This document shows positions 37,890 to 41,355 of a stretch of 64,000 bases of DNA, piece after piece. A program made the position numbers and the translations under genes. This DNA is from Betaproteobacteria bacterium (GTDB lineage: Bacteria > Pseudomonadota > Gammaproteobacteria > Burkholderiales > JAEUOS01). Location of the stretch: the NCBI GenBank assembly GCA_028292405.1, contig JAQGMJ010000039.1:1-64000 (forward strand), written 5' to 3'. The first letter of the stretch is position 1. The number at the start of each line of letters is the position of its first letter. Under the pieces are notes generated by a model. That model made no database searches. It was not told the DNA's origin and saw only the letters and a list, made by a program, of their open reading frames with translations.

Positions 37890-38282
37890 CTACAGCTTGG
37901 CCATCAGTACTTCGCGGATCTGGTTGTCCGAGTACATGCCGTCGGTGCGCTGGGCGTAAGCGCAGTGCATTTCCAGCACGCCGTTGGAAAAGTCGATTTT
38001 CATCTGCGCCGGCGTCGCGGCGTTCGCCAGCTTGACCAGCTTCAGGCCCTCGGCCACGGCCTCCTTGCCCAGCACGTCGGTGCAGATCACGCGCAGCGCC
38101 ATGTTGAGTCGATGGCAGGACAGGTTGTCGAGAAAATTCAGCCCCTCGGCGTCGTTTTCCAGGCTGGCCCAGTCGATCTCGTAGCGAATCGGGCTGCCGG
38201 TGATTTCCAGCAACTCCTTTTCCCGCTCGGGCAGGACGGTGTCGGTCAATTCCTTGATCTTGCGACGCTCGGCGAGTCCCAT
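37890..38282 (-). CDS. Hypothetical soluble protein
   Basis: 130-aa protein starting MGLAERRKIKELTDTVLPER with no signal peptide; a helical N-terminus then a beta-rich C-terminal half (MKIDFSNGVLEMHCAYAQRT). No family recognised. ATG 38282 is the first with protein-like sequence; upstream residues are low-complexity. Convergent with the DHA2 exporter. Confidence 0.65.
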   Translation of the reverse strand: MGLAERRKIKELTDTVLPEREKELLEITGSPIRYEIDWASLENDAEGLNFLDNLSCHRLNMALRVICTDVLGKEAVAEGLKLVKLANAATPAQMKIDFSNGVLEMHCAYAQRTDGMYSDNQIREVLMAKL

Positions 38283-38429: not shown

Positions 38430-38768
38430 TCAGCGCGTGCAGGCGTCGCCGCCGCAGTTGCCGCCGAACTCCTGATCCACCTTGTGCCGGAATGCCGGGA
38501 TATGCAGCAGCAGGCACAGCGGTGCATACAAGGGAATCGCACAACAAATGTGTTCGAAGGCGGCGGCGCCATGATGAATCACGCCACTGCGCAAATCCTC
38601 CACCACCACCTCGCCCATGCGCAGCGCGCCGCTGGCGGGGGTGACAGTGGAAACCTCGAGACGGTGCAGCCAGTCCAGGCGCTGGTGCATGCGCGCATAG
38701 CGGGCACAGCGCGCGCAATCCGGGTTGCGGTAGATGCGCCAGCGCGGCGCCGTTGCATGAGCATCCAT
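38430..38768 (-). CDS. DCC-family thiol-disulfide oxidoreductase-like protein
   Basis: 112-aa protein: RIYRNPDCARCARYARMHQR has the CxxC (Cys18, Cys21) of the DCC (DUF393) family, followed by VTPASGALRMGEVVVEDLRS and an IPLYAPLCLLLHIPAFR hydrophobic stretch. Predicted thiol-disulfide chemistry in the cytoplasm or at the membrane. Lies 23 bases after the stop of the ECF41-partner gene on the same strand, so probably part of the ECF41-controlled transcript. Confidence 0.75.
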   Translation of the reverse strand: MDAHATAPRWRIYRNPDCARCARYARMHQRLDWLHRLEVSTVTPASGALRMGEVVVEDLRSGVIHHGAAAFEHICCAIPLYAPLCLLLHIPAFRHKVDQEFGGNCGGDACTR

Positions 38769-38791
38769 GGCGACTCTCCGGGATGGCCCGC

Positions 38792-39238
38792 TTATTTGGA
38801 CAGCGCAGCGCGAAAGCCGCCGGCGATGCGGTTCCAGGCGTTGATCAGGGCGACGGCATAGGTAAGCTCGACGATTTCCTTTTCGCTGAAGAATTCCTTC
38901 AGGGCTTCGAAGTCGGCGTCCGGGACATGGGTTTCGCCCATGCGGGTAAGGGTCTCGGCCCACTTCAGGGCGGCGCATTCGCGCGCGGTGAAGAAATTGT
39001 TCTCGTGCCAGGTGCTGATGCTGTTGAGTACGCGCGGATCGGCGCCAAGCTTGACCAGGTCGCGCCAGTGCATGTCGACGCAAAAGGCGCAGCCGTTGAT
39101 CAGCGAAACGCGCAGATAGACCATGTCGATGAGCTGCTGGCCGACGGTCGAATCCTTGAGCTTGTCGTTGACGCCGGCCAGGCCCTGGTAGAGGGCGGGG
39201 GCGATTTGCGGGAAATTGAGGCGGGGCGTGTGGGACAT
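38792..39238 (-). CDS. Carboxymuconolactone-decarboxylase/AhpD-like protein (ECF41 partner)
   Basis: 148-aa protein with the AhpD-type active site INGCAFCVDMH (Cys50, Cys53, His57), the CxxC-x3-H pattern of the carboxymuconolactone decarboxylase superfamily, which reduces peroxides or decarboxylates gamma-carboxymuconolactone. Such genes are the usual neighbours (the 'COE' genes) of ECF41 sigma factors. It lies just downstream of the ECF41 gene and carries its own TGTCACA-N16-CGTC promoter. Start from ATG 39238 with GGAAAG upstream. Confidence 0.92.
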   Translation of the reverse strand: MSHTPRLNFPQIAPALYQGLAGVNDKLKDSTVGQQLIDMVYLRVSLINGCAFCVDMHWRDLVKLGADPRVLNSISTWHENNFFTARECAALKWAETLTRMGETHVPDADFEALKEFFSEKEIVELTYAVALINAWNRIAGGFRAALSK

Positions 39239-39260
39239 GATCGGGTCTTTCCAGGGTCAT

Positions 39261-39281
39261 GGCAGGTGGAGATCACCTGCC
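39261..39281. repeat. Perfect inverted repeat in leader of AhpD-like gene
   Basis: GGCAGGTG-GAGAT-CACCTGCC, 8-bp perfect arms with 5-base spacer, between the predicted transcription start (about 39286) and ATG 39238. Either an operator or a leader hairpin. Confidence 0.6.
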
Positions 39282-39292
39282 TATGCCTGTAA

Positions 39293-39319
39293 GACGCGCC
39301 GCGTCCCTTGCTTGTGACA
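39293..39319 (-). promoter_or_regulatory. ECF41-type promoter of AhpD-like gene
   Basis: On the minus strand TGTCACA (39319-39313), exactly 16 bases, CGTC (39296-39293): the -35/-10 motif reported for ECF41 sigma factors. The -35 lies just past the stop codon of the sigma gene. Confidence 0.75.
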
Positions 39320-39320
39320 G

Positions 39321-40229
39321 TTATTTCTGGATTTGCGCAGCGATGTGCTTGAGCTTGTCCGGATTGCGCACGGCGTACATGTCGAGGATCTTTTGTCCGT
39401 CGGTGACGATGGTGAAGGCCGTGTCGAGCCGGCCTTGCGCATAGCGCAACAGGCCGGGGGCGCCGTTGATCTCCGCCTGGCGGTATTCGAACAGCGGTCC
39501 GACGCGCCGTGCAATGACGTGGAAAAACCGCGCCAGGCGTAGGGCGCCCTGCAGCACGCGCGTGACCGACTGCGCTTTGCCGCCGCCGTCGCCGGTGAAG
39601 GTGGCGTCTTCGGCGAACAATGCCGCCAGTTGCTTGATGTCGCCGCCGCGGGAGGCCTCGACAAAGCGCTCCAGCAGGCGCACATGCGCCGCCCGGCTGA
39701 CCTCGAAGCGCGGGCGGTTCTGCCGCACCCGCTCTTTCGCGCGATGCACCAGCTGGCGGCAGGTGGCCTCGCTCTTGCCCAGCATCTGCGCGACTTCGAC
39801 ATAGTCCATCTCGAATACTTCGCGCAGCAAAAATGCCGCGCGCTCTTCCGGCCCGAGGCGCTCCAGCACCATGAGAAAAGCGGTGGAGACGTCGCTGGTG
39901 AATTCCAGCACGCTCTCGGGCGTGTCCGGAGCCGCCGCTTCCACCAGCGGCTCCGGCAGCCAGAAGCCGGGGTAGTTTTCGCGCTCGGTTTTCAGCGCGC
40001 GCAGGCGGTCGATCGCCAGGCGGGTGGTAACGGTGACCAGCCAGGCTTCGGGTGTGCGGATTTCGGCGGCGGCGCCGTCGTGCCAGCGCAGGTAGGCGTC
40101 CTGCAGGACGTCCTCGGCCTCGGCGCGCGAGCCGAGCATGCGGTAGGCAATGCCGAACAGGCGGGCGCGATGGGTGTTGAAGACGTCGGCGCGGCTGGGA
40201 ATTGGAGGGGTAGCGGTATCGGGTTCCAT
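39321..40229 (-). CDS. ECF41 sigma factor with SnoaL-like C-terminal domain
   Basis: 302-aa extracytoplasmic-function sigma factor. Sigma2 region: HRARLFGIAYRMLGSRAEAEDVLQDAYLRW; sigma4: LGPEERAAFLLREVFEMDYVEVAQMLGKSEATCRQLVHRAK. The three signature motifs of ECF41 are all present: WLPEP (residues 90-94), DGGGK (214-218) in the fused C-terminal NTF2/SnoaL-like domain, and NPDKL (289-293). ECF41 proteins lack an anti-sigma factor; the C-terminal domain acts in cis. An exact ECF41 promoter ends eight bases before ATG 40229, indicating autoregulation and a possibly leaderless message. Confidence 0.95.
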   Translation of the reverse strand: MEPDTATPPIPSRADVFNTHRARLFGIAYRMLGSRAEAEDVLQDAYLRWHDGAAAEIRTPEAWLVTVTTRLAIDRLRALKTERENYPGFWLPEPLVEAAAPDTPESVLEFTSDVSTAFLMVLERLGPEERAAFLLREVFEMDYVEVAQMLGKSEATCRQLVHRAKERVRQNRPRFEVSRAAHVRLLERFVEASRGGDIKQLAALFAEDATFTGDGGGKAQSVTRVLQGALRLARFFHVIARRVGPLFEYRQAEINGAPGLLRYAQGRLDTAFTIVTDGQKILDMYAVRNPDKLKHIAAQIQK

Positions 40230-40237
40230 ATATTGAA

Positions 40238-40264
40238 GACGGACGGGCCGACAGTTTTGTGACA
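40238..40264 (-). promoter_or_regulatory. ECF41-type promoter of the sigma gene
   Basis: On the minus strand TGTCACA (40264-40258), 16 bases, CGTC (40241-40238), identical in motif and spacing to the promoter at 39293-39319. Confidence 0.75.
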
Positions 40265-40266
40265 AG

Positions 40267-40289
40267 CGGCGTAAAAATATTTTACGCCG
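40267..40289. repeat. 23-bp perfect palindrome upstream of ECF41 promoter
   Basis: CGGCGTAAAA-ATA-TTTTACGCCG, 10-bp perfect arms, ending two bases from the -35 element. Could be an operator or a terminator for the upstream HtrA-like gene; the T run lies inside the stem, so it is not a standard terminator. Confidence 0.6.
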
Positions 40290-40312: not shown

Positions 40313-40390
40313 CACAGTTTGCCGTGCCACCACCCAAGCTGCTAGCGCAGTTTGTCTCGCCACGACCCAAACTACTAATGCAGTTTGGGC
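40313..40390. repeat. 33-bp tandem repeat forming hairpins at the 3' end of the HtrA-like gene
   Basis: Copies at 40313-40345, 40346-40378 and a partial copy from 40379. Each contains CAGTTTG and, with the neighbouring CCCAA(G/A)CT, can form a stem (best: CCCAAACT/AGTTTGGG, 40366-40389). The stop codon of the HtrA-like gene (40375-40377) sits in the loop of that stem. Confidence 0.65.
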
Positions 40391-41355
40391 TTCCTGAAGA
40401 AATCCGTCCGGTTCGCCGAGCGCACCCTCACCCGAAGCACGTCGCCTTGGCGCGCCAGTTGCAGCGGCACTTCGACGCCGGCGACGCCGAGCGACCAGAC
40501 ACGGCGCAAAAAGGCCGGCAGGCCGTTGACGCGCTGGTCGGAAACCCCCAGCACCATGTCGCCCAGCTTGACGCCGGCGCGCTCGGCCGGGCCGCCGGCG
40601 GCGAGACCGGCGACCACCAGCTTGCCCTCGTCTTCCTGCGCGTACATGCCGAGCCACGGCCGCACCGGCTGGTCGCTGCGGCCGATCGACAGCATGGAGG
40701 CGAGAATGGGTTCGAGCAGGTCGACCGGCACGAACATGTTGACCTGACGTTCCTTGCCTTCGTAGTCTTCCTGGATCAGCAGCGAGCCGATGCCGACCAG
40801 GCGCCCGGCGCCGTCGAGCAGCGCGGCGCCGCCCCATTGCGGATGGGCAGGGACGGTGAAGATGGCGGAGTCGAGCAGGTATTCCCAATAGCCGGCGAAT
40901 TCGCGGCGCGAACTGACATGCGCCTTCAGCGCGTGGTCGAGGCCGCCCTGGCCGATGACGTAGACGTCGTCGCCCGCCGCCAGATCGGCGGCGCTGCCGC
41001 GCGCGAGTGCGCGTACGCCGAGCTGGCCCAGCGGCTGCACCAGGCCGAAGCCGGTGGCATGGTCGTAGCCCAGCACGGTGCCCGGCACCACCACGTTATG
41101 GTTGGTCGAAAGCCAGATGGTCTCGGCTTCGGTGATCAGGTAGCCGATCGTCAGCGTCAGGCCGTCCTCGCGGATCACCACGCCGTAGCCGGCGCGCTCG
41201 GTGCCGAGGGTTTGCGCGGTGAATGCGTCGTCGGGAATTTCGGAGCGGACCATCACCACGGCATCGAGCGCGCGCGGCAGGTCGAAATCGACTTCCGCCG
41301 CCGTCGGCTGCAGCGCGGCGGGAAAGGCCCATTGCTTGGGGATGGAATCTGACAT
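40375..41355 (-). CDS. HtrA/S1C-like protein with PDZ domain, catalytic triad lost
   Basis: 326-aa protein with a trypsin-like double barrel and a C-terminal PDZ domain (about residues 235-315: RPWLGMYAQEDEGKLVVAGL, GPAERAGVKLGDMVLGVSDQ, VNGLPAFLRRVWSLG). Compared with HtrA, the His motif LTNNHVV is LTIGYLI, the Asp of DLAVL is Gly102 (DHATGFGLVQ) and GNSGGP is QWGGAA, so the serine aligns with Gly175. All three triad residues appear replaced, suggesting a pseudoprotease or chaperone. There is no signal peptide, unlike DegP/DegS, so it is probably cytoplasmic. Located upstream of the ECF41 gene, same strand. Confidence 0.8.
   Translation of the reverse strand: MSDSIPKQWAFPAALQPTAAEVDFDLPRALDAVVMVRSEIPDDAFTAQTLGTERAGYGVVIREDGLTLTIGYLITEAETIWLSTNHNVVVPGTVLGYDHATGFGLVQPLGQLGVRALARGSAADLAAGDDVYVIGQGGLDHALKAHVSSRREFAGYWEYLLDSAIFTVPAHPQWGGAALLDGAGRLVGIGSLLIQEDYEGKERQVNMFVPVDLLEPILASMLSIGRSDQPVRPWLGMYAQEDEGKLVVAGLAAGGPAERAGVKLGDMVLGVSDQRVNGLPAFLRRVWSLGVAGVEVPLQLARQGDVLRVRVRSANRTDFFRKPKLH

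Follow-up and report, generated by a model that had tools for sequence, protein, structure and literature searches.

Genes and sites of the locus

The window, the whole stretch of 64,000 nucleotides that was analysed, carries on its minus strand a gene for an ECF41/SigJ-like sigma factor of 302 amino acids (39321..40229, ATG at 40229, stop at 39321). It is followed by a gene for a carboxymuconolactone decarboxylase (CMD)/AhpD-like protein of 148 amino acids with a CAFC motif (38792..39238) and, 23 nt beyond the CMD stop, by a DCC1-like gene starting at 38768 (38430..38768, 112 amino acids, DCARC). Exact copies of TGTCACA-N16-CGTC lie on the same strand before the sigma gene (40238..40264; TGTCACA 40264-40258, CGTC 40241-40238) and before the CMD gene (39293..39319; TGTCACA 39319-39313, CGTC 39296-39293). 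The latter begins 1 nt beyond the sigma stop codon, and the CMD start codon lies 54 nt beyond its CGTC. Read directly from the DNA, the motif coordinates, the gene order and the 23-base gap listed in an earlier note on this stretch were correct to the base. Directly upstream of the sigma gene, the same strand encodes an HtrA/DegS-like protein (40375-41355) that has a trypsin-like and a PDZ domain and reaches the cut-off of no named HtrA/DegP subfamily; downstream of DCC, 37890-38282 encodes a protein of 130 aa that had no match in Pfam or NCBIfam.

The earlier note had assigned the sigma factor to ECF41 by three motifs, and this assignment was borne out by family models and a structure. The WLPEP linker motif as well as DGGGK and NPDKL in the C-terminal extension are all present, and most relatives keep them too. 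The full-length protein scored 336 bits with TIGR02957 (SigX4; cut-off 323) and 319 bits with PRK09636 (SigJ; cut-off 271), sigma regions 2 and 4 were both above their Pfam cut-offs, and the structure of SigJ of Mycobacterium tuberculosis (5xe7), an actinobacterial protein, matched nearly the whole protein (E 2.7e-50), the homology including the SnoaL-like domain. The match to SnoaL_2 was weak, 22.8 bits at residues 187-239 and thus below the 27-bit cut-off. In its own genome the sigma gene was the only match at E<=1e-40. The features of an ECF41 locus are found together: sigma2 and sigma4 domains with a SnoaL-like extension (about 100 aa or more in this group), a COE gene linked immediately downstream (here a CMD with CxxC, oxidoreductase or epimerase being the alternatives), and an exact TGTCACA, spacer 16 +/- 1, CGTC before both the sigma and the COE gene. 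Among the neighbours, i.e., the CMD, the DCC1-like protein, the 130-aa protein and the HtrA-like protease with its PDZ domain, Pfam and NCBIfam revealed no anti-sigma gene. The CMD protein reached 55 bits with PF02627 and 42.7 bits with the AhpD core domain TIGR00778. Its closest solved relatives are the AhpD-like proteins PA0269 and Atu0492 (2o4d, 2ijc, 2gmy; E about 1e-33). The C-x-x-C motif was kept in all 109 of 109 linked CMD proteins.

Set beside the loci described in PMC3426412, the locus is an ordinary ECF41 case in its protein and promoter, in the order of its genes, in having a promoter at each of the two genes and in the narrowness of its regulon. The pairs ecf41Bli-ydfG of Bacillus licheniformis, RSP_0606-ecf41Rsp of Rhodobacter sphaeroides and SMb20029-rpoE9 of Sinorhizobium meliloti share with it the fused extension, the WLPEP linker, the linked CxxC CMD and TGTCACA-N16-CGTC, and as in the window the regulon is confined to the ECF41 locus: in the reported experiments the CMD gene, together with the sigma gene if cotranscribed, was the only target (PMC3426412, PMC6180224). 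In R. sphaeroides and S. meliloti the CMD gene precedes the sigma gene in one operon whose leader is short, whereas in the window the sigma gene comes first and each gene has its own promoter. This arrangement is that of the >ECF> >COE> class of Wecke 2012 as tabulated there (53/373 loci, both promoters in about 20% of the class), to which the DCC gene is an addition.

The promoter motif in the genome and in relatives

The genome (5.53 Mb, 93% complete) contained two exact copies of TGTCACA-N16-CGTC, both at this locus, and two further matches when spacers of N14-18 were allowed. Since base composition alone predicts about 2.1 exact N16 matches genome-wide, the count of two is uninformative. 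A motif count above chance, which the earlier note had named as a check, was thus not found; its rule that chance-level counts would refute the system would wrongly discard it, because ECF41 factors control one or two promoters. The case for the motifs rests on position and conservation, not on the genome count. A correctly oriented motif in both of two given 60-bp upstream windows has a chance of about 1e-10, and two of 100 shuffles of the window gave at least two motif matches with N14-18. Three inexact matches were not taken as regulon members: TGTCACA-N15-CGTC about 115 nt upstream of pstS (L002, 1501-1526), an N17 match of YGTY form inside a TauD-like gene (L088) and an N18 match with too long a spacer (L001). 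The site before pstS resembles a phosphate-control site, which we presume to be the more likely identity than ECF41.

For comparison 169 sigma loci were gathered from relatives, 96 of which, the window included, came from betaproteobacteria or the window's own order. The sigma gene precedes the CMD gene on one strand in 58 of these 96 loci. The motif was present before the sigma gene in 54/96, before the CMD gene in 56/96 and before both in 33/96 loci, the window among the latter; 19 of the 96 had the canonical motif before neither gene. The spacer sequence varies among the relatives and the motif stays, as expected of a promoter. It is extremely improbable that both motifs arose by chance and that the sigma factor has its targets elsewhere, a reading that could appeal to the agreement of two observed with about 2.1 expected copies: the motifs are placed precisely at the pair of genes under ECF41 control, and relatives place them at the same spots with different spacers. 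The claim of a self-activating unit with the CMD gene, already made in the earlier note, finds support in the family models, in this conservation and in published ECF41 biology. In most genomes of the order the sigma gene is missing, as it was detected in 30 of 399 (E<=1e-60); the distribution of the module is therefore patchy. Locus L111 has three ECF41-type motifs close by, and L098 has two motifs with two CMD-like frames.

The surroundings of the sigma promoter hold further repeats. Two bases upstream of the -35 element lies a perfect 10-bp palindrome (40267-40289), CGGCGTAAAA-TAT/ATA-TTTTACGCCG, which no T-run follows on the minus strand. It may be a boundary element, a terminator of the upstream gene or an operator; a repeated operator was discarded, as the palindrome occurs as a single copy in the genome. 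A further inverted repeat, imperfect (70%) and 27 nt long, spans 40333-40389 between the HtrA-like and the sigma gene and contains GCAGTTTG words in several copies.

Predicted starts of the sigma and CMD transcripts

Eight nucleotides separate CGTC from the sigma ATG. In the ECF41 operon of S. meliloti the transcription start was mapped 9 nt past CGTC (PMC3616915), and this rule, carried over from a relative, places the predicted +1 on the A of the ATG (40229, minus strand). Wecke et al. describe a G start followed by a leader of 22/23 nt, and their Table 5 gives 31/32 nt for the same genes (PMC3426412); in our own reading of these passages, the offset of 9 agrees with an identical start site, provided that the table measures from the motif. 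Among 56 loci with a motif before the sigma gene, an ATG at 8-9 nt was in frame in 29 and out of frame in 3, a bias with P about 2e-11 if one third were expected to be in frame; this value serves as a guide only, because the loci are related and P values overstate their independence. Including 7 nt, an in-frame ATG was observed in 31 loci of 25 genera; in 24 loci it is the sole candidate start, other candidates within 11 nt aside. An ATG at 7-9 nt was missing in 25 of the 56 promoter-bearing loci (about 45%), and in a few of these a leader carries a ribosome-binding site. The CMD leaders show a mild excess of ATG at 8 nt as well, mostly out of frame (13/87; 10 out of frame, 3 in frame), and some of the ATG signal could therefore reflect a preference of the start site. 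The in-frame bias alone is specific for the sigma genes, and as a sequence pattern it speaks for leaderless sigma mRNAs.

From the ATG at the ECF41 start position and the in-frame bias in the relatives, the sigma mRNA is likely leaderless, with a predicted AUG at +1. It would be unlikely that the mRNA starts at an upstream promoter, or that translation uses a non-standard internal start codon, with ATG 40229 near the promoter by accident. Longer leaders with a ribosome-binding site do occur in several relatives (L008, L090, L009), but the sigma gene of the window has no other in-frame ATG, GTG or TTG ahead of conserved region 2, the region yielded no sigma-70-like promoter, and the bias at 8-9 nt recurs across the 25 genera. 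Betaproteobacteria are known to have leaderless transcripts; in Cupriavidus metallidurans, for instance, they accounted for 4.67% of the primary starts and were enriched in transcription genes (PMC7563307). A literature search combining leaderless transcripts and ECF41 yielded no paper that links both, which is no proof of novelty. The Results of Wecke 2012 mention neither an ATG at the start site nor a leader stem-loop. As far as this literature extends, the layout of the ECF41 sigma genes with the ATG at the start site appears not to have been reported before.

With the start extrapolated from PMC3616915, the CMD mRNA is predicted to have a 5' leader of 46 nt (39239..39284, minus strand). 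It exceeds the leaders of B. licheniformis and R. sphaeroides, reported as 22/23 nt, and is structured: starting about 3 nt in from the predicted 5' end, an inverted repeat at 39261..39281 provides a perfect 8-bp stem closed by a 5-nt loop, and a weak ribosome-binding site, GGAAAG (39252-39247), follows. The computed fold has -18.2 kcal/mol, with a z of -3.7 against shuffles. Rfam contained no known RNA family for the region at E<=1. A ribosome-binding site is present in the majority of the relatives' CMD leaders. Within the first 30 nt of 53 betaproteobacterial CMD leaders, stems of at least 7 bp were counted 19 times (2.9 expected from dinucleotide shuffles) and stems of at least 8 bp 13 times (0.8 expected); applied to 32 sigma starts, this test gave no excess. 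The mean folding z was -0.75 in 57 betaproteobacterial leaders, about -0.3 in other long leaders and 0 in short ones. Several lineages are entirely without a stem, hence the stem-loop is common, not universal; judged from these sequences, it is enriched in Burkholderiales. In the literature consulted, this regularity was apparently not reported before. In gammaproteobacteria (L017-L023, L029, L032; Marinobacter, Halomonas and relatives) the CMD leader after the ECF41 promoter is conserved in sequence, TACCTCTGTAGAAC...GTGGA...TCCAC, and has a hairpin of its own.

The stem may serve mRNA stability or gating, or the repeat may be a DNA operator. An operator for a second regulator in place of an RNA stem-loop is suggested by the perfect 8-bp dyad and by a sequence, GGCGCA..GGTGCGCC, partly common to some relatives, yet most relatives change the sequence and keep the pairing and its position (2-4 to 16-28 nt, counted from the predicted 5' end). 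Together with the stem excess confined to the CMD side, this makes an operator the less probable explanation, at odds of perhaps one in four, and points to a stem-loop in the RNA.

The DCC1-like gene and the function of the module

According to the earlier note, the regulon extends to the DCC gene. Its position is in favour: it is adjacent and co-oriented, and the 23-nt gap to the CMD gene has no terminator-like site on the minus strand, so that on sequence grounds transcription probably reads through from CMD into DCC. The wider claim, that DCC is a functional partner of the CMD protein, e.g., a thiol-disulfide recycler, and a deliberate member of a three-gene regulon, could also invoke the C-x-x-C-type motifs in both proteins; it is doubtful, though. 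The DCC1-like protein belongs to PF04134 by a narrow margin only (28.7 bits against a cut-off of 27.8, DCxxC motif), and no homologue was detected at E<=1e-6 in the 398 other genomes of the order. By the family model, 17 of 41 ECF41-bearing genomes have DCC1-like genes, but the window is the sole case of one next to the ECF41 locus; in the 40 others they are absent or elsewhere. Sequence and family searches thus led us to reject DCC as a conserved ECF41 partner, and the gene is at most a local addition by co-transcription with CMD.

A peroxide- or thiol-related role of the locus, likewise put forward in the earlier note, is a guess. The CxxC of the CMD protein fits it; against it stand the deletion and overexpression strains of B. 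licheniformis and R. sphaeroides, in which no oxidant phenotype was seen (PMC3426412). According to the same source, the sigma factor activates the CMD promoter of B. licheniformis 70-fold, and the idea that the CMD protein is the anti-sigma factor was tested in this organism and found unsupported. The C-terminal extension is described as both restraining ECF41 and being partly required, with no anti-sigma gene (PMC3426412; review PMC8999054).

Taken together, we assign a probability of about 0.88 to an autoregulated ECF41 module with a leaderless sigma mRNA, a structured CMD leader and read-through into DCC. Following the findings in relatives, the SnoaL-like C-terminal extension would restrain the sigma factor in place of a separate anti-sigma factor, and a signal would change its conformation towards binding of RNA polymerase. 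As in the relatives for which promoter activation is documented, the sigma factor would then start transcription at TGTCACA-N16-CGTC before its own gene and before the CMD gene. The sigma transcript would most likely start at the A of the ATG and be translated as a leaderless mRNA, and the CMD transcript would present its 46-nt leader with the stable stem-loop first, possibly with a regulatory role, and then the ribosome-binding site. The CMD protein would be the effector, presumably acting through its CxxC, and the DCC gene would probably be read through from CMD.

The locus adds one clean example to the ECF41 loci; its wider importance may lie in the sigma ATG, which recurs at the predicted start position across many genera. 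Whether ECF41 modules of Burkholderiales in general use one promoter type for two kinds of transcript, a leaderless sigma mRNA and a CMD mRNA with a structured leader, we regard as evenly balanced. If true, the feedback of the sigma factor would be tied to the state of the ribosome pool through leaderless translation, and the CMD message would be stabilised or gated by its 5' stem-loop. The leaderless sigma message, if real, points to conditions favouring leaderless translation in the search for the ECF41 signal and phenotype, and the 5' stem-loop of the CMD mRNA would offer a second handle on ECF41.
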